Shown: positions 25,650 through 52,218 of the stretch, in pieces
Layout of the letters: the number at the start of each line of letters is the position of its first letter
How positions within the stretch are numbered: the first letter of the stretch is position 1
Source of the DNA: Astropecten irregularis
Lineage: Eukaryota > Echinodermata > Asteroidea > Paxillosida > Astropectinidae
Direction: 5' to 3'
Length of the DNA stretch: 64,000 bases
NCBI GenBank assembly: GCA_963971285.1
Contig: OZ020249.1
Span: 10,528,256-10,592,255, forward strand
Notes under the pieces: model-generated
What the model was told of the DNA's origin: nothing
The model's input: only the letters and a program-made list of their open reading frames with translations
Databases searched by the model: none
Made by a program: the position numbers and the translations under genes

Positions 25650-25684
25650 TCCTACCATCATTCCCGTTGAAATCATCAGCTACC

Positions 25685-31852: not shown

Positions 31853-32026
31853 TTTAGACTTAACTCAAGTCGGATTTCTCTCTTGCATCGCTTACTATCA
31901 GTGAGCTGCTTGTCTAGTCTGCAGCTGCCTCGTGTCTATTTCGTGGGATCGCAAAACAGAGTTGATTGGCAAGTGAGGGCGCCCAATAACCAGTACAAAA
32001 AATCCGACTTGAGTCAAGTCTAAAAA
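31853..32026. repeat. MITE-like inverted repeat with AGACTTAACTCAAGTCGGATT arms
   Basis: TAGACTTAACTCAAGTCGG and CCGACTTGAGTCAAGTCTA bound ~170 bp; the same element is present at about 45090-45260 in block B, so it predates the duplication. Confidence 0.6.
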
Positions 32027-32537: not shown

Positions 32538-32872
32538 TTTGCATACCGAAGCAGAAATCTTCACAGATTTGCCTATAACTTACAGGATAAAAAGATGGTG
32601 ATAGTAGAAACATACTGTTAAAATATTTCTGCCCGAAATGCTGTATTTATCCAGAAAAGAGTAAAATCAGTGACCAAAAGTATTTTTGATCTTTTAAAGA
32701 TCAAAAATAAAAGAGAAAAAACTTAAGAAATACTGTGGCTGTTTTTCTTTGTTTTCTCTAAAAGTGGGCACCGTATGGGACTGTAATCTTCACAGATGAC
32801 TGTTTCTGTATCTTTTTTGATATTTTTGCCCTTGCATTTGTAAGTTTCTTTGACAAGAACCAAAAAAATGAT
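32538..32872 (+). repeat. TTAA MITE family R1 in block A
   Basis: Matches R1 from CATACCGAAGCAGAAATC onward; left terminus replaced. The paralogous copy is at 45779-46106. Confidence 0.65.
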
Positions 32873-33057
32873 ATTCAGCCACTGAGATAAATTTCACAAT
32901 CAACTTTGGTGTATACTGTTATATTGTCTGCTTTTTGCTTTTGCAAAACTCATGATTTGAACATACATTTCTGTACAACCACTGTTGTGTTACATTAACA
33001 CATTAACCCTGCAAACTATGTATTAGCTGAATGACCGTACATGTACATCCCATCCAT

Positions 33058-33357
33058 TAGGCCGGGAAAAAAATGGCTGTGTTGCCCTCAGCGACTAAAT
33101 GCCGAAACTTTGGGTCGGGATTTTGTTTTTCTCCGAGTCCTCAAAGTATCCCCATTTTTGACAGAAAATGTAAGATTTAGCAGTAAAAAAGCGTGTCTCC
33201 TCAAAACGACCCAAGACCCAAGCCCTGGTGACCATACATCCTATTCTTAAATCTTTGAAAGTCGGCCCAAAAAAAGAAAAAAAAAACGACAGACCGACCG
33301 ACCCAAAATTTTAATTTTTCCACTTGAGGGCAACACAACAATGTTTTTTTTCCGGCC
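33058..33357. mobile_element. MITE with AGGCCGG termini in block A
   Basis: TTAGGCCGGGAAAAAAATGG and CATTGTTTTTTTTCCGGCCT with adjoining GTGTTGCCCTCA / TGAGGGCAACACA form the inverted ends, with CATT on both sides. Duplicate copy at 46308-46612. Confidence 0.55.
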
Positions 33358-33983
33358 TCATTCCATTATATCAAGCACAATTTTAAAATGGTTATAAAAA
33401 CATATTATACAAATTATTTTGGTTATAATTATGGTTTTGCTTTGCAATGATCATGTCCCAGATTCTGGGATTCATCACCCGTCTGGGGTCTGGATAAATA
33501 CTTCTGGTAATAATACCGCAGTCTACTAAAATGACTGCTTTGGCTACTTTACTCAAAGAATTAAATAAGTTCTATAAAAGATAATTGTAAGCAATGATTT
33601 AAGTCAGATGCAGGAAAGTGCATTTCCTGCAAACTAATAAGCTTCCTGGCAAGTACATGGTCTCTATAGGTGAAATAAGGTCATTATGTTATTAGCCACT
33701 AATTCCTCGAATCTGTGTTTCTGGTACATTGTGCATAATTTTACAATGGTGTAATGTGCTTCCAATTTAATATCTGGATCCGCAAATCTTAATATCTTCT
33801 GCCTGTATATTCTTTGACGCAGTACAAGTGTAATGTACAGTATTCAAATTTATTAAAATAAATTATTCTGGGTACATTGTATAACATTTCATGTCATTTT
33901 TCTTCGGAATTAGTAAATGTTGTTTCCGCCGTTAGTACTGTGTTCTGTAAAGGACACTGTCCTTTTTCCTCGTGTAGATAAAT

Positions 33984-34190
33984 ACACGTACGGGTTTACA
34001 CTTCGAAAAAAGCGCATGCGTGATAGTGCCTCGTTTTGAAGTCGCGATTAAAACTGCCGAAGTGTAAACCCGTGTATTGTCTTCGACAATGGACGGGTTT
34101 ACACTTCGAAAAGTGCGCATGCGTGGAAGTACCTCGTTTTGAAGTTGCGATCAAAATCTAAGATGGCCGCCATGGTGTAAACCCGTGTAT
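33984..34190. repeat. Two tandem ~100-bp palindromic MITEs (ACGGGTTTACAC ends)
   Basis: ACGGGTTTACACTTCGAA ... GTGTAAACCCGT occurs twice back to back, with CGCATGCGTG and CCTCGTTTTGAAGT internal motifs in each. Same arrangement at 47234-47440 in block B. Confidence 0.6.
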
Positions 34191-34573
34191 TATCCTCAGT
34201 TGTATAATATACGCTTTTCAGCTTGTAGGCCTATAGGGCCTATAATTATGGATCACGGATATTGTATAAAAAAATTTGGACTCCCAATACCCACATTGTC
34301 ACTGAAACCACAAGTTTCCATCTTGGAGGGCCAAATACAAAGGTAATACAAAGACGTGCTCACCATTGTTAGTTAAATCCGTCTGCCAACAATAGTTATC
34401 GCATTGTATCTGGCACGGTAAGATGGCCGCTAATGGCTTCAGTTGATACAAAAGCGTTGCAAGTCCAGATTTTTTGTCGTCCGTGATATGGATGCACAAA
34501 GGATCCAGTAAGATGTTTCAAGGATATGTGATCTGGTATGGATCCTGTTGGATCTTTGGAGTTTCACATGTGG

Positions 34574-35713
34574 TCAGTGTCTGACATGGTTTGTCTTTGG
34601 GCGAGGTTGTGTAGCACATAATGCCAGGCTGACTATGAAGAAGACTGCAGCGAGAAGCCACCCTGTTAAGGTAACCGGCAAGGTGATGACACAAGCACTG
34701 TTCATCTCCTCAGTGTCTTCGACAACATCACCGTTGTCGATTGGAGATTTGTCGGTCGGTGGTCGATCGGTCGATGTTGCGCCTGATTCTGTGGATGGGT
34801 GTGTGTCCTTGGAGTCATCAAACTTGTGGATTGGAGATTTGTCGGTCGGTAGTCGATCGGTCGATGTTGCGCCTGATTCTGTGGATGGATATGTGTCCTT
34901 GGGATCATCAAACTTGTGGATTGCAGATTTGTCGGTCGGTGGTTGATCGATGTATGCTGCGGCTGACTCTATCGGTGGATTTGTCGACTTAACTGCATGT
35001 GTGGTGCTGACTGATGGTGTCTTATCAGGACGGACCAGCAATAAGGCACTTTGCCTCTGCCTTGTTAATGAGACTGACCCTCGGACCACCTCGCACGCCA
35101 CTCGGCTGCCGTTGTTTTCCATGTGTAGCTGCTCAAAGATGAGCCTCTTGTTCTTGTTCTTGAACTGAATGTTTCCGGATGCCTTTATTTCCGCCCAGTT
35201 GCCACTTGTAAACATGAACCAAGCGTGTGAGTTTTCTCTGGACTGTTGGTCGTATGAACAGCTGAAGGCAGCTTTATCACCTTGGGAGCTCCTCAGAGTC
35301 GATGGTTGGACGACCGTGTTGATCGGATCAACAACACTGAGTGCTCCCACTTGAGAGAATTCAGTCCGAGGAGAATCAGTGGGAACAAGAGAATAGACAC
35401 TGCAGTGGTAGTCACCAGCATCATTTTGATCCACGTCTGGAATGAGTAAAGTCCACTCTGGACCTTGTGATGAAATTCCATATGTACGCTCGTTCAGCGG
35501 GCTCTGACTCCAACAATTAGAAATGAAAAGCATCCGCTCGTATATCCAGTGAAGGCGACGTTCGTCTTCATTCCTCCCACACACGGTAACATTGACCGTG
35601 CAGCTCAGCGTCACATTATCGCCTACTACAGCCAGGGTATCCTTGGGGCCCGCAGTGAAGAACCCCTCTCCACAAACCGATGCAGCAATCAAAATGACAC
35701 CAAACACGAACAT
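34574..35713 (-). CDS. Ig receptor gene 1: two-Ig-domain type I membrane protein, intronless
   Basis: A 379-residue single-exon frame from ATG 35713. Signal peptide about 1-15 (FVFGVILIAASVCG); Ig domain 1 about 20-125 (LSCTV ... W ... DAGDYHCSVY, ending VGALSVVD); Ig domain 2 about 130-235 (AFSCSYDQQ ... W ... RVACEVV); Ser/Thr/Pro-rich stalk with two 30-residue repeats; transmembrane helix about 341-366; 11-residue cytoplasmic tail. It is likely a cell-surface recognition molecule; the ligand is unknown. A 1-nt indel relative to gene 3 shifts the last residues, so the tail is PRPKTNHVRH here. Flanks are almost identical to gene 3 but Ig1 differs strongly. No intron is needed, which is unusual for Ig proteins. 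I do not recognise a named orthologue. Confidence 0.75.
   Translation of the reverse strand: MFVFGVILIAASVCGEGFFTAGPKDTLAVVGDNVTLSCTVNVTVCGRNEDERRLHWIYERMLFISNCWSQSPLNERTYGISSQGPEWTLLIPDVDQNDAGDYHCSVYSLVPTDSPRTEFSQVGALSVVDPINTVVQPSTLRSSQGDKAAFSCSYDQQSRENSHAWFMFTSGNWAEIKASGNIQFKNKNKRLIFEQLHMENNGSRVACEVVRGSVSLTRQRQSALLLVRPDKTPSVSTTHAVKSTNPPIESAAAYIDQPPTDKSAIHKFDDPKDTYPSTESGATSTDRLPTDKSPIHKFDDSKDTHPSTESGATSTDRPPTDKSPIDNGDVVEDTEEMNSACVITLPVTLTGWLLAAVFFIVSLALCATQPRPKTNHVRH
34739..34918 (-). repeat. Stalk minisatellite, two 90-bp units (gene 1)
   Basis: Each unit encodes HKFDD(P/S)KDT(H/Y)PSTES followed by GATSTDR(L/P)PTDKSPI. Homologous to the 16-unit array in gene 3. Confidence 0.9.
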
Positions 35714-35821
35714 TGCGGCAGTTTTCCCTCGGAAAACAGTACAATTAAATCACAAATTGTTTGGTCAAACAACTTGTGACTGACCCAAATTAGGAGCAGT
35801 TCGTGAGCTTGTGATCCGACG

Positions 35822-35827
35822 TTTATA
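35822..35827 (-). promoter_or_regulatory. Candidate TATA box of Ig gene 1
   Basis: TATAAA on the minus strand about 109 bp before the start codon. The same hexamer sits 108 bp before the start of gene 3 (50322-50327); gene 2 has a degraded version. Position-based inference. Confidence 0.4.
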
Positions 35828-36584
35828 GATTTGAAAACGTTTGAGAAAGCAGATTGTAATTTCCGAAGCATAGACACTGACTCTAGGTTTGAGCGCCTGG
35901 TGGATTTGAAATAGTGAATAGTTCACTTGTGAGCTAGCAAGCAAACCCTATTGTGCTTGTACGTGGACTGATCACCCTTGCCAATAAATTTGGCAAGAAC
36001 CAAGTAGTCATTGCATTGGGATATATTAATAGGCGGTCTTGGCACGGGCCTCCCTTTGCCTGGCAAATAGTCTCCTCTAGTTGTTACATGGTGTTTCTTT
36101 TTCATGACTCTTTCTTCCTTATAAAACGGAATAAACAGATCAATGGGAAGACATGAAGCAACATTCAGTACGTTTATCGTCGCCCAATCGCAGTTATTTG
36201 GCATGCAAACGCGGAAAATGTGTTAAAATTGAATGCACAATTGTTTCTCTGGTCTACATGTAGACTCGATTCCAAGTGGGACTTTGTCCTTGCTTGTTTA
36301 ACTCCGTATTGATTTGACTTGTTATTGGATTTTATACACCAGGAAAAAGTGAATTTCATACATTATCCGGTCTAGATGTAGACTTGATTCTGAGTGGGAC
36401 TTTTGCCCTTGTCAGTCTTTATACGTGTATATAGCTCCGTATTAATGTGACGTGTTAATAAACAACAATCGACAACAAACAATAACAAAAAGAAAACAGA
36501 AAACAAAAACAAACAACGAACAACAAACAGCAAATGACGAACGACAAGCGACAAGTGACAAACAACAACAACGACATTTCAGAC

Positions 36585-36873
36585 TTAAAGGTCAATACAT
36601 GATTGGTAAACGTCACAGCACTGATACTTTGTCTGATCAAACATGTACATGAAATAATAAACCTGTGAAAATTTGAGCTCAATCGGACATCTGAGTCACG
36701 AGGCAATAGCGAAAACCCGACTAAATTTTTCTTATAATACTTGAAGAATGGTTTTGATCTTACCCCAAGATCGAAACTGTTTTCAGTCTTTGTTTTACTA
36801 ATTTCTGGATAAATACAGCATTTCAGGTGGAAATGTTTTAACGGTATGTTTCTACCAGCATCTTCATACCTTG
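36585..36873 (-). repeat. TTAA MITE family R1/R1b hybrid
   Basis: TTAAAGGTCAATACATGATT, the TTTGTCTGATCAAACATG module and CTCAATCGGACATCTGAG, then the R1 module to TTTCTACCAGCATCTTCATACC. Confidence 0.6.
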
Positions 36874-38163
36874 AGTGAAAGGGGATAACGAAAACAACTT
36901 AAGTGAGGGTGTCCTTTATGTTTGTTCCAAAAATCGTTCGGACGAACTATCTTTGGAAAAGACAGTAAATCTTGATTTTCTTGAAAAAAAAAACCCAGCA
37001 TCTGATGAACCAAAATTTCCCATGGTGACTGTTTGCACTGTTTACGAACTGTTGAGTCCATTTTCTGTCTCAAACTCAATAATTTGTTTTGGAGGCCTTG
37101 CAAATCCTATATGCTCCTATTAAAGACACCTGAAGTTTTCATTTGGGGGTCAGGGGTTTTTATAATGGTATAATTCAGCCCTCGCACCGAAATGCACGCT
37201 TTCAGGAGCACTCTACGACTCTCATACACGTATCTGGGTCTGTCCACACTAATGAATACATTTGATAACTTTCACGGGGTGTAACGTGGGAGGTGGATTT
37301 AAAATAAGTTTTTATGCTAAATTTTGTTTCCTAAACATTCCTGTATTCATTCGAAGTTAACTGAAAAAAATGAATAGGCTGATTCACTGGATAAGTAGGA
37401 AATCACAAGGGCATCTTTAAAGGGCGGCTGCAGTGCTTTTTTCAGTCAGGTTATTTTATTGCCTTCATACAGAGAATATACTGACAGATAATGAATGGCA
37501 AGTCTTATTTTGGTTTCAAACCAGCATTTGGTTTTCCTTTGAATGCCTTTGTAAAACGGGGGATTTTCACGCACACTCATGTAGGGAACCAACAGCAAAA
37601 ATATAATGAAAAAACATAAGAAATGAAGAGGCAAACTTGACCTACAGAAATGGTTTGGTAAAAAAAATAACACCACCAGTTGAGTGAAAGGAACATATTT
37701 GGCAAAATAAAACCATTGAGGAGGAAAAGGTCTGTCAGAAAACCTATAAAACAACTGCAACTTTTTGTGCACAAATCAATTGGGTTACTGCTCTCAGTTC
37801 CCCAGATGACATCACAGTTTTGCTCATGAATATGGAAATGCTAATTAGCATACAAACCAAAAAACCTGTTTTTAACCCTGAATCAGTGTGAGGAAGTGGG
37901 TAAAATTACAATCCCCATGTACAGTTTTTTTATTGGCACATGTTCAAGCCATAATATTCCCATTGCAGAGACCCTTTAAATGAATGATAACGTTTGTTAC
38001 ATGGACAAACATTCTTGTATTGTACAGGTATATTCTTGTCAGAATTCAATGCAGACTTGTTCCATATATATTACTTTAATGATGTGCAAATGTCATCTTT
38101 AAAAATTAAAGCATCGTATGTGTTATTTATGAAGTAAGGATGTATCTTGAATATCCATAACAT

Positions 38164-38194
38164 GGACAGACATTTTGGGACAAAATGTCTGTCC
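38164..38194. repeat. Perfect hairpin, 14-bp arms
   Basis: GGACAGACATTTTG, loop GGA, then the exact complement. TAACAAACGT motifs flank it at about 37990, 38203 and 38385. Possibly a MITE remnant. Confidence 0.6.
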
Positions 38195-39487
38195 CCGTAA
38201 CAAACGTGAAATCTTGAAGATGTAGACACTGTTGTTCAAAAAATACCTAGACAGGCTAGAGGTAATAAACTATAATTGCCCAGTAGCCATCCCACAATGG
38301 AAAGCTTTGCATTTAAGGAACAAAATTTGGGATGATTAATTATTTTCATTACTAAATGCCAGCACTTAATGATGAAATGTCCGTGTTACAAACGTTACAT
38401 GCTTGAAGATGATCCTCTGTACTATCTTGAGTGCTTCGAAATCTATCAAACTTTTTGGCCGGCCAAGTTCTTACAAGAATAATGGGATGTAGTTAAAGAG
38501 AAAACATGGCAAATTACTTGATGTATCAACTCCTGTGCTTGGTTCCCCTCCAAAAGTCACACAAATGTATGCATTAGTATGGACAGACCCATCTACAAGT
38601 TTGTTATCAGAAAAGTACTATGACACATGGATTTTATACACCAGGAAGTCAATTACATGCATACAATATCTGCATTATGTTATTCAAGCCTGCATATTGG
38701 ACAACTATAGACTCTGCATACAATAATGGAGGAAGATGGTTCAATGTCAGTGTCAAATAATTACTTCCGGTTCTAAAAGTACATAGTAAAGGGTTGATGT
38801 TTAAAAACGCGGTCATACGCGGCTAGTCAAACACAATGACCATCTCTACTGTCACAGGTACCCACTACCTCATAGGTGCATGGAAGCCATTTCTATGAGC
38901 TAGGTGCCATGCTTAAGGACACAAGCAGCCTGATTCCCGTGGCTGGACTTAAAATCCCAATCTGGGGAGTTGTCACCATAAGACATTGAGTTTGACCCAC
39001 CAGAGCATAATGACCTTTGCACTTCACAGCTTTTGCTAATAGTGAAATATTTTCTTGAGTACATAGGACCTATGCCTACATCTGTAACTATACATTAATC
39101 GGACTTTATCCATTTGACATCTTACCAACCCAGTATGTGGGATGTTTCAGGACCACATTTTTGCCCCAATTTATTCGGACGTGTTCCATTTCCTACGAAG
39201 TTTTCCTCAGTATATTTCGTATGCTGCAGCAGCGGGCAGCAAACTATATGCAAAAGTCAGTACATTTCTAATAATACTAGTTCTACTATACAGCATCATA
39301 GTAGAACATATTCCTTACAATGTTTCCATTTACAATATCTGTCATTATCTAAAATTCTTCAAGCATTGATGTACACTCTCATATCATATTATGTATTAAA
39401 CTGGGCCACTTTCATTTATTTTACATTAAGTATTGTAGTTCAACTTTCTGAGTAATAACATTATAATGGTCATAACATTGTGGTATC

Positions 39488-39518
39488 CTGATGATGACTA
39501 GAGCAGGCTAGTCGAAAC
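39488..39518 (+). ncRNA. Hammerhead-like ribozyme core (candidate)
   Basis: CTGATGA (39488-39494), one extra T, then stem GACTAG / CTAGTC with loop AGCAGG, then GAAAC. This is the order of conserved boxes in a hammerhead. The unpaired T between CTGATGA and stem II and the lack of an evident cleavage-site strand argue against an active fold. Penelope-like retroelements are known to carry such motifs. Confidence 0.35.
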
Positions 39519-40400
39519 GTTGAGACCTTATGAGATGTGCAAACGATATAGTACTTAAGTACAAACGATTCTTACATGGCGTTTCCGCAAACCAATTCAC
39601 ATACCAATTGTCACCATGCAAAACCTCAAATCTTTCTTAACATATTGGTTATACTATACATACTTACGTAAAAACATGTATTGCGATAATAATTACGCTT
39701 TTAACGTCATAAATGTATCCATTGTCATTCCAAAGTGCTCAATTTGTATACCACCTATAGATAAAACTTTAGAAAAACGAGTAAATTGCTAGTAATTCAT
39801 CCCTTCGTTTGTATCTTAATGAGTCACGACAAAATTCTGGCTAAATACTTCCGGTTAATACGTCTGTTACTGCGATGTTTACTGTCCTCACAAAATGATA
39901 TTATTTCAAAAGTAAACGAAAGCAATGATTTATAAAGTCAGACTCAGGAAATTGAAAATTATATAACAAAACCTCTATGTGTCAAATAACACATTGTGAG
40001 TGCTTCCTGAAATTAAGCTCACTGGCAACTGGTCTCTTATAGGTGAAATAAGGTCATTATCTTAGACCACTAACTCCTTCGTGTTTCTGGTAAATTCTGC
40101 TTTTACATGAGTCAATGATGCAGTTTAATTACCTGTGTTTTTTTATTTAATGTCTGGATCCGCCACTGATAAATCGACTCTTCTGCTTATTCTCTGATGC
40201 AGTACAAATTCAGTGTTGCAGAAATGAGCTGCTATTTTATCTAGGTACATGTTATAACATTTCATGTCATTTCTGTGTGTGTATAGTATTAGGTGTGTCC
40301 ACTGTTAGTACGGTGTTCTGTAAAGGACACTTCGGCCTTGCTTGTCCTAGAGATACCCACCGTTCTACGCTTCTTCGGCTTGGATTCACACGAGACAAAG

Positions 40401-41438
40401 TTAGATTTTCGTTTCATAGATGTGATCTGATATGGAATCTCGGTCATGCTGTTGGATCTTTGGTGTTTCACGTTGTTGGTGGGTGTCTGATTTAGCTCGT
40501 CTTTTGACGAGGATATAAAGGATCAACGTCAGGCTGAGTATGAAGAAGACTCCAGCTAGAGTCCATCCTGGTACGATGACCACGAAGTTATTAGACTCTT
40601 CGGCAATGTTATCCTTGTCAATTGGAGATTTGTCGGTGGTAGAATGATCGGGAAATTCTGCGTCTGAGACTGACGGTAGATGTGTGGAAACTGCATGTGT
40701 GGTGCTGACTTGTGTCTTATTAGGACGGACCAGCAATAAGCCACTTTGCCTCTGCCTTGTTAATGAGACTGACCCTCGGACCACCTCGCACGCCACTTGG
40801 CTGCCGTTGTATTCCATCCGTAGCTGCTCAAAGATGAGCCTTTTTTTTTTCTTGTTCTTGAACTGAATGTTTTCAGAGGCCTGTATTTCTCTCCACCTGC
40901 CTCTTGTAAACATGAACCAATCGTGTGAGTTCTCTGTCGACTGCTGGTCGTATGAACAGCTGAAGACAGCTTGACCACCTTGGGGTCTCCTTAAAGCCAA
41001 TGGTTGGACAACCGTGTTGATCGGCTCAACAACACTGAGTGTTCCCACTCCAGAGTCATCACTGTAATGTGTATCAGAAGAAACAAATGAATAGATATAG
41101 CATCCATAATCTCCAGCAGCATTTTGATCCACGTTTGGTATTTGCAAAATCCACTCTGGACCCTGTGATGAAACTTCATATTGATAATTATAACGCATTC
41201 GCATGTAACAATGCGTAATTGGAGATGATACTGTTTGGACTGGTCTTACTGGACTTGGTCGATGTTTCCAGTAAATCAATCGAGAGGGACTGGTCTCCCC
41301 GCACACCGTGACTTTGACCGTGCAGCTCAGTGTCACATCATCGCCTACTACAGCCAGGGTATCCTCGGGACCAGCCTTGAAGAACCCCTCTCCACAAACC
41401 GATACCGCACCAATCAATATAACACCAAACACCAACAT
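40401..41438 (-). CDS. Ig receptor gene 2: diverged paralogue with longer cytoplasmic tail
   Basis: 345 residues from the ATG at 41438, which matches the start of genes 1 and 3; the frame is open further upstream. Signal peptide (LVFGVILIGAVSVCG), Ig domain 1 (LSCTV ... GDYGCYIYS, ending GVGTLSVVE), Ig domain 2 (VFSCSYDQQ ... VACEVV), a short stalk with at most one degenerate repeat unit, transmembrane helix about 285-311, and a basic KRR anchor with a 34-residue tail ending HIYETKI. That tyrosine is not a consensus ITIM. Ig2 and the signal peptide are closely conserved with genes 1 and 3, while the middle of Ig1 is very different and longer. Likely the least modified copy of the intracellular end. 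Function unknown. Confidence 0.75.
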   Translation of the reverse strand: MLVFGVILIGAVSVCGEGFFKAGPEDTLAVVGDDVTLSCTVKVTVCGETSPSRLIYWKHRPSPVRPVQTVSSPITHCYMRMRYNYQYEVSSQGPEWILQIPNVDQNAAGDYGCYIYSFVSSDTHYSDDSGVGTLSVVEPINTVVQPLALRRPQGGQAVFSCSYDQQSTENSHDWFMFTRGRWREIQASENIQFKNKKKKRLIFEQLRMEYNGSQVACEVVRGSVSLTRQRQSGLLLVRPNKTQVSTTHAVSTHLPSVSDAEFPDHSTTDKSPIDKDNIAEESNNFVVIVPGWTLAGVFFILSLTLILYILVKRRAKSDTHQQRETPKIQQHDRDSISDHIYETKI

Positions 41439-44243
41439 TTCAGGAAAGATAGCACAGTTTAAAAAAAGTGCATTTGATAAAAAAAAACGATTGTCATTCA
41501 CTCACACAATTGAGCATAGCTCATGTTCCTGTTATGTTCGATGTTTTTCTTCCAAAGTTGATAGATTTCAAACTTGTGGGGAAGCAGTTGGCATTTTCCA
41601 AAGCATTGACACTGCAGTTATTCAATGGTTAACCCTATGAGGCTAAATTGTGTGTTTGTGTGCTAGCAATCAGTCTCAAATAGACGTGGACGTGGAAAAA
41701 TCACTCTTTGCAGTTTGACAATATCGTCTGTTTCGGACTCTTGGTTTTTTGAAACTTCCTTCCCTTTTGGCCATAATTTTGGAGTCATCGAGCATTATCT
41801 CGAAAAGTGATAATCACATAAAACTGGGCATGTTCCTTGTAAGTAGATGCTACTTCCGGGTCCATAACAGTTGGACACTATGGGCAACGCACGAAGCTAC
41901 GAGCTTTCTGTTGTATTGTTCTCCGCAATTTAAACTTGAATTTTGCCCCACATGATGATGTTTCTTGTTTCTACATTTTGACCTATCACTTTGACCGATG
42001 TACTGCCATTGATTTTGCACGTAAAAGGAATGGGCCTACTTCGGTATCACAAGCCGATTTTTAGAGTGTAGATGTGAGTGTTTTTTTGGCAGTTCAAGAT
42101 TGTCTAGAAAGTTTGCACCGTGTCTCTCCGATGGTATAGGAGTGTCTTTGAAGCAGAAGGGTATAGGCTGTTCCACAGTGCAGGATCAGAGACGCACAAT
42201 GGCCTATTTACGTGGTCGTCCTTGGGGTAAAGGTTGATGTAACAGTGTAAGAGGTTGTCGAACGAGGACCGCAGATTGTCAGTTGTGTGTACGAGGTTGA
42301 ACGAGCTCTTGTAGGTATAACAGTGCGAGCCCGTACTCTGATTAGAATGAGAATTCAGTGTTTATCCACTGCAGATTATCCACTGTAAGAGGCGAAGTCA
42401 TTTAATAAACCCTGGCTGATTGTCGGCCTATGGGATTTCGTGTACAAAATATTACCACTGACTGTCCCACAATGCAGTTCTCATATGCTTTAAACGTTCA
42501 CTTCCGGTCTATCTACCGATGGGTCTCTGGGATTATGGGCACCATGTATGAGCAACTGACAATCCCACAATACATTTCTCATATTTCATCACTGCACATT
42601 TCCGGTCTATCCGCGAAAGGGTCTATGAAGAGAATGCGTGACTGAAAATATGTCCCGGATGAAAAAATGGTCTCCGTTTCCCAGACCCTTGTCTGTTTAT
42701 ATTGTAAATGTCAATTTGTTTTACCCGGTTTCCTTCCTTATAAAACGGAAAGACAAAGCAATTAAAATGAGGAACCAATGCTTGATTTTATCAGCCTTCC
42801 ATTAAGCTTATTGGCAGCCAAAACAAGGGACATGCAGGAATCTAGACACATGTAAACCCCAACCAGTTGCCAGTAGGCTTGTAAATATAATATCGCTAGA
42901 ATCACTGTACAATGTACTGAATCCTCTACTGCTTGAACTGAAAGAAGAAGGGGGAATTAACGTTTAATATATTCGCTCATTACAATTGAGCAAATGGTGC
43001 ATTTTCCCTTTGTATTTCCGACTAACTCTACTACAGCATCCATATATAATGCGTCGTTCATTATGTTGTTACAATCTTAAAGATTCTGCACGAATTCGAT
43101 TGATATATGTAATTTATTACATAAAATCATTTATCAAAACCAGGAACTGCATCATGATAGCTGGACTTCTTGGTTTAACAGTAAACAGCCGCATATAAAC
43201 ACATGCTACTCTTCATAATCAGCAGATATATATTCATCTTCATTTCCGTCTAATTCTACCACAACGTCCTTATGTAATGCGCCGGTTTTTTTTATTTTAT
43301 GTCAAAGTTGTCATTATATTATTGTAATCAAGTATTGCACAACATTATTCATTACATTAAACTGAAGCGGGACATCCTGCTTAAACAGTATGCATCCCCA
43401 TACATGTATTACCGCATGTATTAAACTGTAAAATAACAAAATCAGTTTTAACCATTCGATTCAAATTCACTTCACGTTTGCCAAACTTGTCTCTCTCTAC
43501 TAAATCCATGCACTTCCGCAATATGACAACAATTAAACAAACTTTACATTTGTTTCTATCCTTAAATGCGGCTACCGAGTGAATAATATTTTTAGATAAG
43601 TTCTTTTATGTATAGTTTCCATTTAACATGATTGCATGATTATTGAAAAATTTAATATACAGAGAATTCTTGAACATTAATATACCTCAGTATATCGGTC
43701 TAGTGGGGGCGCTGTGGTGAATGCCTTTTTGAGGTATAAGTCACAAAAGCATCCCATGAAAAGGCATTAATGAAGTAATTTTACAAACTCACCAAATTAG
43801 GATCAATTTAATTATTCTTTTCTCCTTGGATGTTAAACATTGCTGTGACAATTTGCCATTTTAAGCCATACGCCAATGCTGTGTGCAACACCAAAGATGA
43901 CATCATTAGAACGCCTCCACGAGGCCCAAAATAATTATGGTCTATTACATAATATAGCATATTAGCATATTACATATCCAAACATGGTCCCAACTTCAAT
44001 CCACGTGCAAAAGTTACATGTCAGGTTAATGACAGACCAAACGATAGTGGTCACGAGCACCCATGCACCTAAACTCCACCCATATGTGTTTGGTATCTTG
44101 TTTCAAGAGGAATAATGTTACAACAGTCCCTTTATAAAAAAAGAGATGGGACAAAGGGAGTCCAAACATTCAAATCAAGACATCCTTTTCCGCCGCGTCA
44201 TGAAAATCTCACTCATGAAAAAATTTTGAACTTGGCATCTCTG
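41439..44243. other. Spacer between Ig gene 2 and block B
   Basis: 41440-41650 is homologous to the 5' flank of genes 1 and 3. About 42085-42340 reads on the minus strand as a decayed retrotransposon C-terminus (CVSDPALWNSL-like). 42440-42620 is a two-copy tandem repeat around CCCACAATRCA and TTCCGGTCTATC. The rest is AT-rich with no recognised feature. Confidence 0.4.
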
Positions 44244-45778
44244 TGTCTGGTTCCCAGAGTCAAGGGTATGTTAATGCATATGCATGCACCAGATCCTTGG
44301 TTTTCTTGCCAGACTATCAACAACTCACAGGAAACAATTGAATTGTATAACAAAAAGTGGAAAAATTACTTTATATAAGTTAACGCATGGTCCTCTCTTG
44401 CCATTGTCACCGACATTGACACTTGCAATCTGACGTCACTGTCATTGTCACTGCCATTGACATTGACACTAACACCCTATTATTGATTCTAGCTATTTCT
44501 AGCCTATTCTAGTCACTTGTCACCAGATCATTGACACTGTCATTGCCATTGCACAAGTTCATAAACAGCATTAGAGTGACACCAGGGGTGCAAAATTATG
44601 CCAAATGTAATACATGTAACCTTGCTGTACAATGCACAAGACAACAGTTAGTAATTATAAAATGTCGCCCTCTACAGGTTGTGCAAAGAGCAAATGGGTA
44701 AACCTTTTATTTGAAAAAGAACTTGCACAATAATTAGGGAGCCTATACTATTGCAATGAAACATTTGTTTATATGGCGATTTTCATAATTATAATTAATT
44801 GCTTTTGAATTTATGAACATCTCTTTAAAATAGTTCTTTATTGCCTAAGCATTCAATAAAATTAAGCCACCCCAGAGAGGAAGTACTGGTAATACACATT
44901 GCATAATCAGCTTTTCCTGACTGTCCGTTTGTAAGGTTTCGTGAAATAAATCTCCAAAAGTAAATATTATTTTAAATATTATTCATTGGAATGCAGTCCA
45001 AATTTGCAAATAAAAAGATAAATGGCCTGTTGTCTCAAGTAACTTCATGGAATCCGTCCTTTATTCATGTGGAAAGTGAACCAAGCATTCTTCAGACTTA
45101 ACTCAAGTCGGATTTTGCTCTCGCGTCGCTTACTATCAGTGAGCTGCTTGTCTAGTCTGCAGCTGCCTCGTGTCTATTTCGTGGGATCGCAAAACAGAGT
45201 TGATTGGCAAGTGAGGGCGCCCAATAACCAGTACAAAAAATCCGACTTGAGTCAAGTCTAAAAATTCTTCGGCAAAAGTGAACTTTGCCACCATTACTGG
45301 GAGCCAAAAACTTGTTGGGAATTCAAAAACAAGCATGGATTTAATGGATATTATATGACAGTTTTATTGATGGTGGAACTCAACCCCCAGTGGCTGCATA
45401 CGAGGAGAACCCACCCAGGTACTGTGAGCCTGTGTTTGGATTAGAACCAGGGACCTCAGAAGTGAAAGGTAAGACGATAAATTATACAACATTATTATAA
45501 TGTTTATAATGTTGTAATTTGTATTTGTAATGCCGGTTTACTCCTACACATTGACACCCTGTGTTCTACAAAAATAAATTTCCATTCCAAAACTACTTTC
45601 TACAACTGAGCAACCGCCCTTTCCTGTACTAAAATGTTCTAGTTTCTGGAATTTCGAATGTTGCCTTTACTGCGAAAACGAGTTAATCTAACCGGCATAT
45701 TAATTATTGTAGCCAATGTTTACGGTGCTTGTGCGCCGTTAACTGTCAGTTTAGTGCTAGCGTGTAAAGAGCGTAGTT

Positions 45779-46106
45779 TGCATACCGAAGCAGAAATCTT
45801 CACAGATTTGCCTATAACTTACATGATGTAAAGATGGTGACAGTAGAAACATACTGTTAAAATATTTCTGCCTGAAATGCTGTATTTACCCAGAAGAGAG
45901 TAAAACCAGTGACCAGAAGTATTTTAAAGATCAATAATAAAAGAGAAAAGACTTAAGAAATACTGTGGCTGTTTTTCTTTGTTTTCTCAAAAAGTGGGCA
46001 CCGTATGGGACTGTAATCTTCACAGATGACTGTTACTGTATCTTTTTTGATATTTTTGCCCTTGCATCTGTAAGTTTCTTTGACAAGAACCAAAAAATGA
46101 TATTAA
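45779..46106 (+). repeat. TTAA MITE family R1 in block B
   Basis: Duplicate of 32538-32872; small deletions at the GATC palindrome distinguish it. Confidence 0.65.
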
Positions 46107-47811
46107 GGCACTGAGATAAATTTCACAATCAACTTTGGTGTGTACTGTTATTGTCTGCTTTTTGCTTTTGCAAAACTCATGATTTGAACATTTCTGTGCT
46201 TTATACAAACAACCACTGTTGTGTTATTGATAATGTGAGTAATATCTGTAAAATTAACCCTGCAAACTATGTATTATAATAGCTGAATGACCGTACATGT
46301 ACATCCCATTAGGCCGGGGAAAAAATTATTGTGTTGCCCTCAGCGACTAAATGCCAAAACTTTGGGTCGGGATTTTTTTTTCTCCGAGTCCTAAAGTATC
46401 CCCATTTTTGACAGAAAATGTAAGATTTAGCAGTAAAAAAGCGTGTCTCCTCAAAACGACCCAAGACCCAAGCCCTGGTGACCATACATCCTATTCTTAA
46501 ATCTTTGAAAGTCGGCCCAAAAAAAGAAAAAAAAAACGACAGACCGACCGACCCAAAATTTTAATTTTTCCACTTGAGGGCAACACAACAATGTTTTTTT
46601 TCCGGCCTCATTCCATTATATCAAGCACAATTTTAAAATGGTTATAAAAACATATTATACAAATTATTTTGGTTATAATTATGGTTTTGCTTTGCAATGA
46701 TCATGTCCCAGATTCTGGGATTCATCACCCGTCTGGGGTCTGGATAAATACTTCTGGTAATAATACCGCAGTCTACTAAAATGACTGCTTTGGCTACTTT
46801 ACTCAAAGAATTAAATAAGTTCTATAAAAGATAATTGTAAGCAATGATTTAAGTCAGATGCAGGAAAGTGCATTTCCTGCAAACTAATAAGCTTCCTGGC
46901 AAGTACATGGTCTCTATAGGTGAAATAAGGTCATTATGTTATTAGCCACTAATTCCTCGAATCTGTGTTTCTGGTACATTGTGCATAATTTTACAATGGT
47001 GTAATGTGCTTCCAATTTAATATCTGGATCCGCAAATCTTAATATCTTCTGCCTGTATATTCTTTGACGCAGTACAAGTGTAATGTACAGTATTCAAATT
47101 TATTAAAATAAATTATTCTGGGTACATTGTATAACATTTCATGTCATTTTTCTTCGGTATTAGTAAATGTTGTTTCCGCCGTTAGTACTGTGTTCTGTAA
47201 AGGACACTGTCCTTTTTCCTCGTGTAGATAAATACACGTACGGGTTTACACTTCGAAAAAAGCGCATGCGTGATAGTGCCTCGTTTTGAAGTCGCGATTA
47301 AAACTGCCGAAGTGTAAACCCGTGTATTGTCTTCGACAATGGACGGGTTTACACTTCGAAAAGTGCGCATGCGTGGCAGTACCTCGTTTTGAAGTTGCGA
47401 TCAAAATCTAAGATGGCAGCCATGGTGTAAACCCGTGTATTATCCTCAGTTGTATAATAAACGCTTTTCAGCTTGTAGGCCTATAGGGCCTATAATTATG
47501 GATCACGGATATCGTATAAAAAAATTTGGACTCCCAATACCCACATTGTCACTGAAACCACAAGTTTCCATCTTGGAGGGCCAAATACAAAGGTAATACA
47601 AAGACGTGCTCACCATTGTTAGTTAAATCCGTCTGCCAACAATAGTTATCGCATTGTATCTGGCACGGTAAGATGGCCGCTAATGGCTTCAGTTGATACA
47701 AAAGCGTTGCAAGTCCAGATTTTTTGTCGTCCGTGATATGGATGCACAAATGATCCAGTTTGATGTTTCAAGGATGTGATCTGGTATGGATCCTGTTGGA
47801 TCTTTGGAGTT

Positions 47812-50214
47812 TCACATGTGGTCAGTGTCTGACATGGTTTGTCTTTGGGCGAAGTTGTGTAGCACAGATGCCAGGCTGACTATGAAGAAGACTGCAGCGA
47901 GAAGCCACCCTGTTAAGGTAACCGGCAAGGTGATGACACAAGCACTGTTCATCTCCTCAGTGTCTTCGACAACATCACCGTTGTCGATTGGAGATTTGTC
48001 GGTCGGTGGTCGATCGGTCGATGTTGCGCCTGATTCTGTGGATGGGTGTGTGTCCTTGGAGTCATCAAACTTGTGGATTGGAGATTTGTCGGTCGGTAGT
48101 CGATCGGTCGATGTTGCGCCTGATTCTGTGGATGGATATGTGTCCTTGGGATCATCAAACATGTGGATTGGAGATTTGTCGGTCGGTGGTCGATCGGTCG
48201 ATGTTGCGCCTGATTCTGTGGATGGGTGTGTGTCCTTGGAGTCATCAAACTTGTGGATTGAAGATTTGTCGGTCGGTAGTCGATCGGTGGATGTTGCGTC
48301 TGATTCTGTGGGTGGATGTGTGTCCCTGGGATCATCAAACTTGTGAATTGGAGATTTGTCAGTCGGTGGTCGATCTGTCGATGTTGCGCCTGATTCTGTG
48401 GATGGGTGTGTGTCCTTGGAGTCATCAAACTTGTGGATTGAAGATTTGTCGGTCGGTAGTCGATCGGTCGATGTTGCGCCTGATTCTGTGGATGGATATG
48501 TGTCCTCTGGATCATCAAACATGTGGATTGGAGATTTGTCGGTCGGTGGTCGATCGGTCGATGTTGCGCCTGATTCTGTGCATGGGTGAGTGTCCTTGGA
48601 GTCATCAAACTTGTGGATTGAAGATTTGTCGGTCGGTAGTCGATCGGTGGATGTTGCGTCTGATTCTGTGGGTGGATGTGTGTCCCTGGGATCATCAAAC
48701 TTGTGAATTGGAGATTTGTCAGTCGGTGGTCGATCTGTCGATGTTGCGCCTGATTCTGTGGATGGGTGTGTGTCCTTGGAGTCATCAAACTTGTGGATTG
48801 AAGATTTGTCGGTCGGTATTCGATCGGTGGATGTTGCGTCTGATTCTGTGGATGGATATGTGTCCTTGGGATCATCAAACATGTGGATTGGAGATTTGTC
48901 GGTCGGTGGTCGATCGGTCGATGTTGCGCCTGATTCTGTGGATGGGTGTGTGTCCTTGGAGTCATCAAACTTGTGGATTGAAGATTTGTCGGTCGGTAGT
49001 CGATCGGTGGATGTTGCGTCTGATTCTGTGGGTGGATGTGTGTCCCTGGGATCATCAAACTTGTGAATTGGAGATTTGTCAGTCGGTGGTCGATCTGTCG
49101 ATGTTGCGCCTGATTCTGTGGATGGGTGTGTGTCCTTGGAGTCATCAAACTTGTGGATTGAAGATTTGTCGGTCGGTAGTCGATCGGTGGATGTTGCGTC
49201 TGATTCTGTGGATGGATATGTGTCCTTGGGATCATCAAACTTGTGGATTGGAGGTTTGTCGGTCGGTAGTCGATCGGTGGATGTTGCGTCTGATTCTGTG
49301 GATGGATATGTGTCCTTGGGATCATCAAACTTGTGGATTGGAGGTTTGTCTGTCGGTAGTCGATCTGTGGATGTTGCGCCTGATTCTGTGGATGGATGTG
49401 TGTCCTTGGGATCATCAAACTTGTGGATTGCAGATTTGTCGGTCGGTGGTTGATCGATGTATGCTGCGGCTGACTCTATCGGTGGATTTGTCGACTTAAC
49501 TGCATGTGTGGTGCTGACTGATGGTGTCTTATCAGGACGGACCAGCAATAAGGCACTTTGCCTCTGCCTTGTTAATGAAACCGACCCTCGGACCACCTCG
49601 CACGCCACTCGGCTGCCGTTGTTTTCCATGTGTAGCTGCTCAAAGATGAGCCTCTTGTTCTTGTTCTTGAACTGAATGTTTCCGGATGCCTTTATTTCCG
49701 ACCAGTTGCCACTTGTAAACATGAACCAAGCGTGTGAGTTCTCTGTCGACTGTTGGTCGTATGAACAGCTGAAGGCAGCTTTATCACCTTGGAGTCTCCT
49801 CAGAGTCGATGGTTGGACGACCGTGTTGATCGGATCAACAACACTGAGTGCTCCCACTTGAGAGAATTCAGTCCGAGGAGAATCAGTGGGGACATATGAG
49901 AAGATAGAGCACTTGTAGTCTCCAGTATCATTTTGATCCACGTGTGGTATGTGTAAAGACCACTCTGGACCGTGTGATGAAATTTCATATGTACGCTTTT
50001 GAAGTGAGCTTTTACAATAAGAAATGAATTGCCCCCGTTCGTATATCCAGTAAAGCGGACGATTGTCTTCGCTCCTCCCGCACACCGTGACTTTGACCGT
50101 GCAGCTCAGTGTCACATTATCGCCTACTACAGCCAGGGTATCCTTGGGGCCCGCTGTGAAGAACCCCTCTCCACAAACCGATGCAGCAATCAAAATGACA
50201 CCAAACGCGAACAT
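47812..50214 (-). CDS. Ig receptor gene 3: expanded-stalk paralogue
   Basis: 800 residues from the ATG at 50214, equivalent to that of gene 1; the frame is open 14 codons further upstream. Same layout as gene 1: signal peptide, two Ig domains, stalk, transmembrane helix (about 757-781) and a short tail ending MSDTDHM. The stalk holds 16 units of 30 residues, so this ectodomain could stand much further from the membrane. Thr/Ser/Pro content suggests O-glycosylation. Ig2 differs from gene 1 at only a few positions, whereas Ig1 differs at about 23 of 93 residues plus a 2-residue gap. The tail ends early relative to gene 2 because of a frame change. No introns are apparent. Confidence 0.75.
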   Translation of the reverse strand: MFAFGVILIAASVCGEGFFTAGPKDTLAVVGDNVTLSCTVKVTVCGRSEDNRPLYWIYERGQFISYCKSSLQKRTYEISSHGPEWSLHIPHVDQNDTGDYKCSIFSYVPTDSPRTEFSQVGALSVVDPINTVVQPSTLRRLQGDKAAFSCSYDQQSTENSHAWFMFTSGNWSEIKASGNIQFKNKNKRLIFEQLHMENNGSRVACEVVRGSVSLTRQRQSALLLVRPDKTPSVSTTHAVKSTNPPIESAAAYIDQPPTDKSAIHKFDDPKDTHPSTESGATSTDRLPTDKPPIHKFDDPKDTYPSTESDATSTDRLPTDKPPIHKFDDPKDTYPSTESDATSTDRLPTDKSSIHKFDDSKDTHPSTESGATSTDRPPTDKSPIHKFDDPRDTHPPTESDATSTDRLPTDKSSIHKFDDSKDTHPSTESGATSTDRPPTDKSPIHMFDDPKDTYPSTESDATSTDRIPTDKSSIHKFDDSKDTHPSTESGATSTDRPPTDKSPIHKFDDPRDTHPPTESDATSTDRLPTDKSSIHKFDDSKDTHPCTESGATSTDRPPTDKSPIHMFDDPEDTYPSTESGATSTDRLPTDKSSIHKFDDSKDTHPSTESGATSTDRPPTDKSPIHKFDDPRDTHPPTESDATSTDRLPTDKSSIHKFDDSKDTHPSTESGATSTDRPPTDKSPIHMFDDPKDTYPSTESGATSTDRLPTDKSPIHKFDDSKDTHPSTESGATSTDRPPTDKSPIDNGDVVEDTEEMNSACVITLPVTLTGWLLAAVFFIVSLASVLHNFAQRQTMSDTDHM
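47986..49425 (-). repeat. Stalk minisatellite, sixteen 90-bp units with 360-bp higher-order period
   Basis: Exactly 1,440 bp with no frame-breaking indel. Units alternate between DSKDTHPSTES..RPP and a variable type (PRDTHPP.., PKDTYPS..). Units 5-8, 9-12 and 13-16, counted from the N-terminal side, repeat the same four-unit order, so the last rounds copied 360-bp blocks. Period divisible by three keeps five or more reading frames open, giving large spurious ORFs on both strands. Confidence 0.95.
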
Positions 50215-50321
50215 TGCGTCAGTTTTCCCTCGGAAAACAGTACAATTAAAACACAAATTGTTTGGTCAAACAATTGTGACTGACCCAAATTAGGAGCAGT
50301 TCGTGAGCTTGTGATCCAACG

Positions 50322-50327
50322 TTTATA
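50322..50327 (-). promoter_or_regulatory. Candidate TATA box of Ig gene 3
   Basis: TATAAA about 108 bp before the start codon, in the same position as in gene 1. Confidence 0.4.
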
Positions 50328-52218
50328 GATTTGAAAACGTTTGAGAAAGCAGATTGTAATTTCCGAAGCATAGACACCGACTGTAGGTTTGAGCGCCTGG
50401 TTAGATTGAAATAGTGAATAGTTCACTTGTGAGCTTGCAAGCAAACCCTATTGTGCTTGTACGTGGACTGATCACCCTTGCCAATATATTTGGCAAGAAC
50501 CAAGTAGTCATTGCATTGGGATATATTAATAGGCGGTCTTGGCACGGGCCTCCCTTTGCCTGGCAAAAAGTCTCCTCTAGTTGTTACATGGTGTTTCTTT
50601 TTCCTGACTCTTTCTTCCTTATAAAACGGAATAAACGGATCAATGGGAAGACATGAAGCAACATTCAGTACGTTTATCGTCGCCCAATCGCAGTTATTTG
50701 GCATGCAAACGCGGAAAATGTGTTAAAATTGAATGCACAATTGTTTCTCTGGTCTACATGTAGACTCGATTCCAAGTGGGACTTTGTCCTTGTTTGTTTA
50801 ACTCCGTATTGATTTGACTTGTTATTAGATTTTATACACCAGGAAAAAGTGAATTACATGCATTATTTTATTCAAATCTGCATATTGGACAACTATAGAC
50901 TATATATGCATACAATAATGGAGGAAGTTGGTTCAAATGTCAGTGTCAATTACTTCCGGTTCCATTTAAGTTAAACTATTTTGAACAATCTGCCACCGTA
51001 CACTGAGTTTCCTCCTCAAGAATAGATTTTCTCTTTGTTTTCTTCTATTTCTGAATGTTCTTACTGCTTTCAAATATCTAAATATTATATTATCGGTGCT
51101 ATGTGGAAATGTGGCGAAATTGTACTGAATGATACAATCAATCAATAACAAATAATCAATAGCCAATTGATTATTTCTTTAAGCCTTTTTAAGATTAAAA
51201 TATTCTCAAATGTGTGGCATTGTATGTATAAGAATTCAAAAATCCTAATTCCATTGCATTACCAAGGGAAACCTGGATGAACTTGATTGCATATTGGCCA
51301 TCGGACAAATTGTCATTCCCGTATTATAACAATTCCCTGAAATAACAAAGTAAAGGGTTGCTGTTTAAGTACGCGGGGGCTAATCAAACACATGACCATC
51401 TCTACTGGTACCCACTTACTCCAGGCGTATGCAAGGCATTTGTATAATTAAGAGGGTCCAGCTCCATTGTTCAATTGTTATTTGTTTAACCTAGGTGATT
51501 TAAAAAGATCTGTCGCAACCTTATTTTGTAAAGTCTGTCCCTAAACCATTATATGATCTTGCAGATAACAATGCATTGTCCTCGGAAAAGTATGTTACAA
51601 ATATTACAAAACATATTTGTGTTAAAGGGTTCCTGTGGTGCTTTTTTCAATCATGTTATTTTATTGCCTCCATGCAGAGAATATACTGACAGATACTGAA
51701 TGGCAAGTCTTATTTTGGTTTCAAAGCAACATTTGGTTTTCGTTTTTGAATGGCTTTACAAAATGGAGGATTTTGATGCATACTCGAACCAACAGCCAAA
51801 ATATAACGAAACAAAAAAAAATTTGAAAAGGCAAACTTCACAAACAGAACTGGTTTGGCAAAAGTTACACGTATAATATCGGATTTTGTGTTCAAACACC
51901 GATAAATACAAGCATGTCTTAATATTATGCAAAAATGACATGTCCACAATCGTGGCTGACATAACTGCAATAAGCACTAAAATGGAGTGCGAGAATAAAT
52001 ACTAAACTCAAAACAAAACAAATAACACAAACCATATAATTATGGTATAGTGGGACAGCTGAGACTAATACAGTTCATCTTCATCACATTTTAATCTGAG
52101 CACTAAAACCCTACAGTACATTCATACGTTTAACCGTGGCTATGAAACAGAGTTGAAACCGTTGAACCGATTAGTTGTAAAAATGAATAACAAAATGAAC
52201 ATTTCTTAAAAGTTAGCT

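Follow-up and report, generated by a model that had tools for sequence, protein, structure and literature searches.

How can two receptor genes that lie in almost identical blocks of DNA differ strongly in one part of their first immunoglobulin (Ig) domain? The locus lies in a window of 64 kb, the whole stretch of starfish DNA that was analysed, and the original prediction had offered diversifying selection or donor-driven gene conversion as an answer. The source is very probably Astropecten irregularis; in the mitochondrial contig, ND1- and ND2-like frames on the minus strand, named by eye, and a tRNA-Thr at 1049 agree with the gene order of starfish. To our knowledge, receptors of the Ig type that carry inhibitory motifs have rarely been described in echinoderms. 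A family with an Ig1 patch exchanged between otherwise near-identical genes would be a tangible candidate, open to sequencing, for how starfish diversify recognition, and the test of synonymous divergence (dS) separates two explanations that are often confused at such loci. The immunity of echinoderms relies on large germline gene families according to a recent review (PMC13428168), and adult sea stars are reported to react to allogeneic cells (PMC9763293), no receptor being named in the excerpt of that report. Judged mostly from titles and the openings of abstracts, no paper was recognised as describing this starfish family.

The duplicated locus

Three single-ORF receptor genes were located on the minus strand, to which all gene coordinates in the window refer. 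Gene 1 (34574..35713) is an ORF for 379 aa with signal peptide, Ig1, Ig2, stalk and transmembrane (TM) segment, the signal peptide and TM being assigned by eye. Gene 2 (40401..41438) encodes 345 aa with the C-terminus DHIYETKI. Gene 3 (47812..50214) encodes 800 aa, counted from the ATG, with a long repeat stalk and a short tail; its probable start codon is the ATG at 50214, the listed ORF beginning at a TTG upstream. Gene 1 is inside block A (31058..36350) and gene 3 inside block B (44311..50850), both given without strand. The blocks were delimited by alignment to each other in 100-bp steps, block B also by a blastn self-comparison, and both ends were sharp. Mismatches amounted to 0-5 % in most steps and to 5.5-7 % in a few. 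Over 33111-34110 the blocks were separated by one mismatch and two gapped columns, thus the near identity claimed for the intergenic DNA was confirmed. As judged from this alignment, genes 1 and 3 are products of a recent tandem duplication.

An assembly artefact, either two haplotypes placed side by side or a chimera, would mimic such a duplication. The assembly report lists 87 corrected haplotypic duplications and an incomplete phasing (PMC11480709), and 200 N in total are present within the stretch of the cluster at 11.05 Mb. The same report, however, states a QV of 56.8, the DNA beyond both blocks is unlike, and another gene sits between them. A simple chimera is disfavoured because the 64-kb window has no N runs and no other assembled gene has a sequence identical to either patch. 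We consider an artefact very unlikely.

Genes 1 and 3 had been described as otherwise near-identical, which held for Ig2 and the flanks of Ig1, but not for the number of stalk repeats and the last residues of the tail. The stalk of gene 1 contains 2.8 copies of a 90-bp repeat (34734..34984; 30 aa, rich in Ser/Thr/Pro), whereas that of gene 3 has 16.8 such copies and a higher-order period of 180 bp (47981..49491). In each gene a remnant of the short tail of the family was present in another frame. Pairwise alignment of stalk, TM and tail gave a dS of 0.17 and a nonsynonymous divergence (dN) of 0.14, both inflated in part by the unequal repeat numbers and shifted frames. Scans of the 64-kb window for tRNA genes and Rfam families yielded no matches.

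The divergent patch of Ig1

The divergent CDR1/CDR2-like patch, from the BC loop to the F strand, occupies 35387..35593 in gene 1 and 49894..50094 in gene 3; the loops were named by aligning the sequences with V domains of antibody light chains and by the canonical Cys/Trp positions. Within the patch (residues 41-109) the two genes were unlike at 22 of 67 residues and had a gap of two codons. Differences were found at one of 40 residues before the patch, at none of 21 directly after it (residues 110-130) and at four of 99 in Ig2 (35027..35323 in gene 1, 49534..49830 in gene 3). A divergence of about a quarter had been claimed for 35375-35600, slightly below the observed 22 of 74 residues plus gap; the near-identical flanks and the handful of differences in Ig2 were found as predicted. 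The FG (CDR3-like) loop, 35324..35386 in gene 1 and 49831..49893 in gene 3, is identical on the protein level and lies outside the putatively exchanged patch. On the DNA level, 33 of 177 sites differed in alignment codons 46-122 versus 23 of 489 elsewhere in the ectodomain (Fisher, p = 1e-7). Gene 2 has indeed a third, longer version of Ig1 (patch at 41106..41315, coordinates counted from the translation). It forms a separate patch type in the tree, common to the family members D, E and I; letters denote relatives of genes 1-3.

Synonymous and nonsynonymous divergence

Between genes 1 and 3, the patch (alignment codons 46-122) had a dS of 0.397 and a dN of 0.172. Outside the patch, dS was 0.068 in codons 1-45 and 0.069 in Ig2. 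The dN/dS ratio of the patch was 0.43-0.46, synonymous changes being concentrated there as well. Pointwise diversifying selection was rejected for this pair, since dS was raised along with dN, and with it the first of the two predicted causes. A raised dS combined with a dN/dS below 1 indicates variants that were imported or are old, rather than rapid point mutation.

Across the family, codon models favoured a class with omega ~3 in Ig1 (2dlnL: Ig1 46.7, patch 18.6, Ig2 7.9). These models were calculated with our own script, not PAML, the topology and relative branch lengths being taken unchanged from a nucleotide tree, and the diverged relative K (C12:11033221) was excluded from them as from every codon, tree and recombination count. 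When each of seven segments received its own tree, codons 76-100 stayed significant (p = 6e-4) and the other six did not; values below 0.05 were thus obtained for one of five segments in Ig1 and none of two in Ig2. The patch model gave p = 1e-5 without genes 1, F and J; the type-II rows alone gave p = 0.024. Recombination and uncertain gaps inflate codon models of positive selection. Because the signal weakened with segment-wise trees, these models suggest a modest positive selection in Ig1 across the family. As cause of the divergence between the duplicates, pointwise diversifying selection after the duplication could draw on the family models, in particular on codons 76-100 and the result without genes 1, F and J, but it is at odds with the parallel rise of synonymous changes in the pair and with the lack of significance in six of the seven segments; we regard it as highly improbable.

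Relatives of the patches

Each of the two patches was closer to a gene 0.47-0.75 Mb away than to its own duplicate. In a genome-wide DNA search the best non-self match of the gene 1 patch was F (C12:9814499) with 93 % over 200 bases (294 bits), gene 3 reaching 81 % (242 bits). For the gene 3 patch it was H (C12:11043734) with 85 % (256 bits), gene 1 reaching 80 % (242 bits). In the patch tree (codons 42-122) gene 1 grouped with F (support 99/99) and a grouping of genes 1 and 3 was rejected (p = 0.0025). The tree of the Ig2 side (codons 136-255) united genes 1 and 3 (100/100) and rejected gene 1 with F (p = 1e-8), as did the FG tree (codons 123-150; 100/97, p = 5e-4), which overlaps the former by 15 codons. 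The pair of genes 1 and 3 was the sole grouping named before the trees were seen. Among 41 differing ungapped sites of the two duplicates in codons 46-129, F was matched by gene 1 at 30 and by gene 3 at seven; among 15 differing sites before and after the patch, by gene 1 at four and by gene 3 at nine (inside versus outside, Fisher p = 0.0016). In the PHI test, none of 2000 permutations was as low as observed, and in 53 of 55 pairs the proportion of synonymous differences (pS) was higher in the patch than in Ig2. The run-length test for gene 1 and F gave p = 0.0025 as one of 55 pairs and was not significant after Bonferroni correction.

The difference between genes 1 and 3 extends to alignment column 130, the likeness to F stops near column 122. 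For gene 3 the evidence was less clear: a grouping with H was rejected in the patch tree (p = 0.028), and the likeness to H did not differ significantly between inside and outside of the patch (p = 0.52). Donor-driven conversion, the second of the predicted causes, is supported: the gene 1 patch has another nearest relative than the remainder of the gene, and the patch of gene 3 also has its best match at another locus, though less distinctly. Of what had been named to refute the prediction, a raised dS with a dN/dS below 1 was observed, but not an unrelated donor, the donor type being a member of this receptor family. An exact donor was absent from the assembly, the patches of gene 1 and F differing by a dS of 0.19; conversion may thus have drawn on an ancestral sequence, on an allele or on a gene since lost.

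Two further pairs seem to have a similar, less clean break. E and F grouped with 100/99 support in codons 136-255, yet this grouping was rejected in the patch (p = 2e-18). Upstream they have in common only 91 bases (87 %), and dS in codons 1-45 was 0.34, so in this pair the Ig2 side may be the exchanged part. I and J agree in 92 % of the upstream and 94 % of the downstream DNA, with a dS of 0.088 in stalk and tail. Their patches had a dS of 1.1 and were rejected as a group (p = 6e-6); they have also diverged in Ig2 (dS 0.21) and in the FG segment (dS 0.81), and on the Ig2 side the grouping was neither supported nor rejected (p = 0.20).

Does the patch simply mutate faster? Averaged over 55 pairs, pS was 0.54 in codons 46-75 and 0.45 in codons 76-100, and it reached 0.42 in the FG segment versus ~0.2 in Ig2, which a local mutation hotspot would produce. 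However, codons 101-122, within the patch, were not raised (0.24). A hotspot further predicts genes 1 and 3 as sisters on long branches, the very arrangement rejected by the patch tree, and it does not account for H and J, whose 39 bases in codons 84-98 all agree, compared with 53 of 66 and 63 of 72 in the adjoining stretches. An elevated local mutation rate is therefore extremely improbable as the cause.

A probable exchange between loci

Gene conversion between loci, affecting the CDR1/CDR2-like patch apart from the CDR3-like loop, probably explains these observations best. During or after the duplication, one copy would have received another family member's version of Ig1 between the BC loop and approximately the F strand. 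Gene 1 would be the likelier recipient, having gained an F-type patch, and the process a non-crossover conversion that touched neither the signal peptide nor the FG loop, Ig2 or the flanks. Similar exchanges seem to have taken place elsewhere in the family, so that the CDR1/CDR2-like patch of a receptor could differ in origin from its CDR3-like loop and from its tail. These starfish may thus exchange preformed patches among the receptor genes of their inherited DNA. The choice of patches that are retained may be due to selection, given the modest family-wide signal in Ig1; distinct patches may be favoured while the remainder is homogenised.

Two long-lived Ig1 alleles of one ancestral locus under balancing selection, placed side by side by unequal crossing-over between two haplotypes, would raise dS and dN of the patch just as well, dS then representing the allele age, and a donor identical to F would be unnecessary. 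In one haplotype of one animal, the source of our data, this process and conversion look alike. The hyper-polymorphic N-terminal V-domain region described for the amphioxus VCBP is a precedent (PMC2632668). Old alleles, however, leave the grouping of the gene 1 patch with a gene of another cluster unexplained, as well as the conflicting trees of E/F and I/J, and some exchange between loci would still be needed; we consider them an unlikely origin.

The receptor family and its tails

A search for further intronless members had been proposed, and it retrieved a family of 12 single-ORF genes and two disrupted copies (C12:1349829 and C12:1407585, used in the DNA neighbour scan only), all on one chromosome, with clusters between 9.80 and 11.06 Mb. 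The single ORFs run from signal peptide to tail; no intron was seen. V-set, Ig_3, ig and I-set models matched all 12 ectodomains (E up to 0.01), and C38, W56 and C104 were invariant, thus the canonical Cys pair and Trp of an Ig domain are present; C45 and C67 form an additional conserved pair of Cys. The best Ig stretches of genes 1-3 were all in Ig1; Ig2 is named from its Cys pattern and the alignment. A comparison with NCBIfam gave no match for five of five proteins.

A tandem ITIM/ITSM-like tail, LIYADL and TVYADI 22 residues apart, was present in three of 12 genes (A, D and G) in a motif count that ignores matches at the TM edge. K has its own motifs LEYEEI and TKYENV. Gene 2, E, I and J have a short conserved tail ending in DHIYETKI without ITIM-type motif, and such motifs were also absent from the tails of genes 1, 3 and H. 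An A/D/G-type tail sits out of frame behind H, and F has acquired a new C-terminal end with a chance-looking TSYQQV. Members with a common ectodomain hence occur with and without tails of the type [SIVL]xYxx[ILV], the sequence criterion for ITIM paired receptors. By this measure, the layout of the family is that of paired receptors with long, short and lost tails. The proteins may be surface recognition receptors of the paired type, the long-tailed members inhibiting via their two tyrosine motifs and the short-tailed or tail-less ones acting as activators, decoys or adaptor-dependent partners. A function in immunity or allorecognition would be plausible.

A wider reading would see a germline combinatorial recognition system, with patches, CDR3-like loops, stalk lengths and tails as cassettes reassorted by conversion between loci up to ~1 Mb apart. 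We regard it as rather doubtful. If true, each population could keep renewing its receptors, inhibitory and non-inhibitory, without somatic recombination; such a repertoire might serve allorecognition or pathogen recognition.

Comparison with known recognition systems

KIR, LILR, Siglec and the fish NITR are clusters with ITIM-bearing and ITIM-less versions of one ectodomain. They are multi-exon vertebrate genes; the starfish family resembles them in layout, and no orthology is claimed. Hydractinia Alr genes are clustered invertebrate Ig receptors with V-set-like domains, a likeness in clustering and domain type drawn by description, not by sequence. The amphioxus VCBP are, like the starfish genes, from an invertebrate deuterostome and have Ig V-type domains with variation concentrated in the first domain (PMC2632668). 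They are described there with a chitin-binding domain, introns and variation between haplotypes, in contrast to the starfish family, in which neither this domain nor an intron was seen; genes 1-3 lacked the chitin-binding Pfam domain (E up to 0.01) and have a stalk and an apparent TM segment instead. The ruminant CEACAM1 paralogs are reported as paired receptors whose N-terminal Ig domain binds the ligand and whose tails are of inhibitory or activating type; gene conversion between these paralogs was kept or excluded by region, through selection according to the authors (PMC7042247). The starfish family is alike in its paired-receptor layout, N-terminal Ig domain and, if our reading is correct, conversion between paralogs. 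In CEACAM, as described, conversion homogenises the ligand domains of paired receptors or leaves the mature protein of one paralog unaffected, whereas in the starfish pair flanks and Ig2 are alike and the Ig1 patch differs; moreover, CEACAM genes are multi-exon, the starfish genes single ORFs. In PDB searches, CEACAM chains appeared only among many Ig matches.

Duplicated receptor genes

On its minus strand, the window (C12:10528256-10592255, contig OZ020249.1) carries three single-ORF genes, gene 1 (34574-35713), gene 2 (40401-41438) and gene 3 (47812-50214), each encoding a signal peptide, two Ig domains, a stalk and a transmembrane segment; signal peptide, transmembrane segment and Ig2 were assigned by eye and alignment. 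Genes 1 and 3 lie in the sharp-edged blocks A (31058-36350) and B (44311-50850) of a tandem duplication. Their stalks are length-variable and rich in Ser, Thr and Pro (together 43-44 %). In the gene 3 stalk (47981-49491), a 90-bp unit is repeated in frame 16.8 times, with a higher-order period of 180 bp; the gene 1 stalk (34734-34984) has just 2.8 copies despite the near-identical surrounding block. About 200 block-internal bases (33990-34191) match a dispersed repeat at up to 98 %, on many contigs even among the matches listed, whose number is a lower bound.

A hyperdivergent Ig1 within this near-identical duplication had been predicted and was confirmed. Between genes 1 and 3, 22 of 67 residues differ at residues 41-109, in addition to a two-codon gap, compared with 1/40 before this patch (gene 1, 35387-35593; gene 3, 49894-50094; BC loop to F strand), 0/21 in the FG loop just after it and 4/99 in Ig2. 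On the DNA level, 33 of 177 sites differ in the patch versus 23 of 489 in the rest of the ectodomain (Fisher p 1e-7). Silent sites took part: dS was 0.40 and dN 0.17 in the patch (ratio 0.43), 0.43 and 0.20 in a slightly wider patch (ratio 0.46), and dS was 0.07 in both codons 1-45 and Ig2. In codons 123-150, where the divergent zone has its last eight columns, dS was 0.16 and dN 0.15. Since silent and replacement sites are both raised, the patch difference either predates the duplication or was imported. The original prediction had left diversifying selection and donor conversion as alternatives; pointwise selection was rejected for this pair, dS being raised along with dN, while the donor part gained from the relatives found elsewhere. 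An extra cysteine pair in the patch region (C45 and C67 in gene 1) is invariant in 12 of 12 aligned family members, including the diverged gene K, and likely forms a second disulfide.

Gene family and origin of the patches

In a protein search of the genome (475.7 Mb, 168 contigs), 25 matches had an E value of 1e-5 or better, every one on C12, in clusters at 1.33-1.41, 9.80-9.82, 10.56-10.58 (the window) and 11.03-11.05 Mb. The family comprises, besides two disrupted copies, 12 single-ORF genes (genes 1-3, A, D, E, F, G, H, I, J and the diverged K). Apart from itself, the gene 1 patch matched gene F (C12:9814499) best, at 93 % over 200 bases, with gene 3 behind at 81 %; the gene 3 patch matched gene H (C12:11043734) best, at 85 %, with gene 1 behind at 80 %. 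Among 41 ungapped differences between genes 1 and 3 in codons 46-129 of the family alignment, F agrees with gene 1 at 30 and with gene 3 at 7; at the 15 sites outside, the counts are 4 and 9 (Fisher p 0.0016). The corresponding contrast for gene 3 and H was not significant (p 0.52). Trees of codons 42-122 joined gene 1 with F (99/99) and rejected gene 1 + gene 3 (p 0.0025) and, weakly, gene 3 + H (p 0.028). Genes 1 and 3 were united in codons 123-150 (100/97; gene 1 + F rejected, p 5e-4) and in codons 136-255 (100/100; gene 1 + F rejected, p 1e-8). On these conflicting trees, the CDR1/CDR2-like patch and the CDR3-like FG loop of gene 1 are of different ancestries.

The simplest history would be that the block was duplicated and that an F-type donor then converted the patch of gene 1. 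At 93 % identity the donor was not the present-day F, and the difference between genes 1 and 3 extends slightly beyond the point where the likeness to F stops. A possible alternative is that old alleles were joined by unequal crossing-over.

The patch break seems to recur, less cleanly, in the pairs E/F and I/J. Over codons 136-255, E and F show 96 % identity and form a group (100/99), but they differ in patch type, and E + F was rejected in the patch (p 2e-18). Because their upstream match spans only 91 bases and dS in codons 1-45 is 0.34, the Ig2 side may be the exchanged part. I and J have similar flanks (upstream 92 % over 568 bases, downstream 94 % over 840 bases), with a dS of 0.088 in stalk and tail, 1.1 in the patch, 0.81 in the FG loop and 0.21 in Ig2. 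The I + J tree was rejected in the patch (p 6e-6); the Ig2 side spoke neither for nor against it (p 0.20). Over codons 84-98, H and J agree at 39 of 39 bases, compared with 53/66 and 63/72 in the neighbouring stretches. In the PHI test (186 informative sites), none of 2000 permutations was as low as the observed value. A run-length test is weaker evidence: p was 0.0025 for gene 1-F and 0.005 for H-J, uncorrected over 55 pairs, and the strongest pairs shared their runs in Ig2. For 53 of the 55 pairs, synonymous differences (pS) were more frequent in the patch than in Ig2.

Signs of selection across the family

Codon models for 11 genes, fitted with our own script and inflatable by gaps and recombination, favoured a class with omega above 1 in Ig1 (2dlnL 46.7) and the patch (18.6), with a slight gain in Ig2 (7.9; one site at the edge). 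With an own tree for each of seven segments, only codons 76-100 were significant (p 6e-4); codons 101-122 (p 0.08), the FG segment (0.27) and the Ig2 segments (0.84 and 0.35) were not. For the patch, p was 0.024 in the type II rows alone and 1e-5 without gene 1, F and J. These models lend modest support to diversifying selection at some patch positions on the family level.

Tail types

In A, D and G the tail is about 330 residues long and contains LIYADL and TVYADI at a spacing of 22 residues, a pair that we take to be ITIM/ITSM-like. Gene 2, E, I and J end in DHIYETKI, presumably a class I PDZ ligand, and K (C12:11033221) bears its own tail, in which the motifs are LEYEEI and TKYENV. Behind H the A/D/G tail lies out of frame, and in F unrelated sequence was seen by eye to have entered within the transmembrane segment; the tail thus seems to have been lost more than once. 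By eye, genes 1 and 3 retain, in a different frame, what is left of a DHIYETKI-type tail. With the long tail as query, 21 matches were obtained, every one on C12. ITIM and non-ITIM tails each occur with both patch types. The receptor layout resembles that of CEACAM, and because of this likeness and the tail types we infer paired inhibitory and non-inhibitory recognition by the family. Gene conversion between CEACAM1 and ITAM-like paralogs has been described (PMC7042247).

Related receptors and neighbouring genes

Searching from a relative on contig C14 returned 26 matches. Counting the query, 20 of these do not belong to the window family; they are located on C12 (3.75, 19.05-19.12 and 22.64 Mb), C14, C21 and C29, and each is an open frame. 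Six were read (L048-L053, the last partial), among them the single-ORF Ig receptors L048 (C12, 19.09 Mb) and L049 (C14, 2.53 Mb). They show three Ig domains by eye and, in most, tyrosine-bearing tails; ALYAMPDK in L053 resembles VLYAVPDK of the long tails. This larger single-ORF set appears to include the window family as a branch with two Ig domains. Near the receptor cluster, 59116-62913 encodes, in a single ORF, a NACHT protein (1265 aa) whose LRR matches fell short of the cut-offs, possibly a second immune-type gene. A 934-aa ORF (11059-13863) resembles by eye a LINE endonuclease/reverse transcriptase, and a 374-aa ORF (25667-26791) encodes a DegT/DnrJ/EryC1/StrS-type aminotransferase, to our knowledge unusual in animals.
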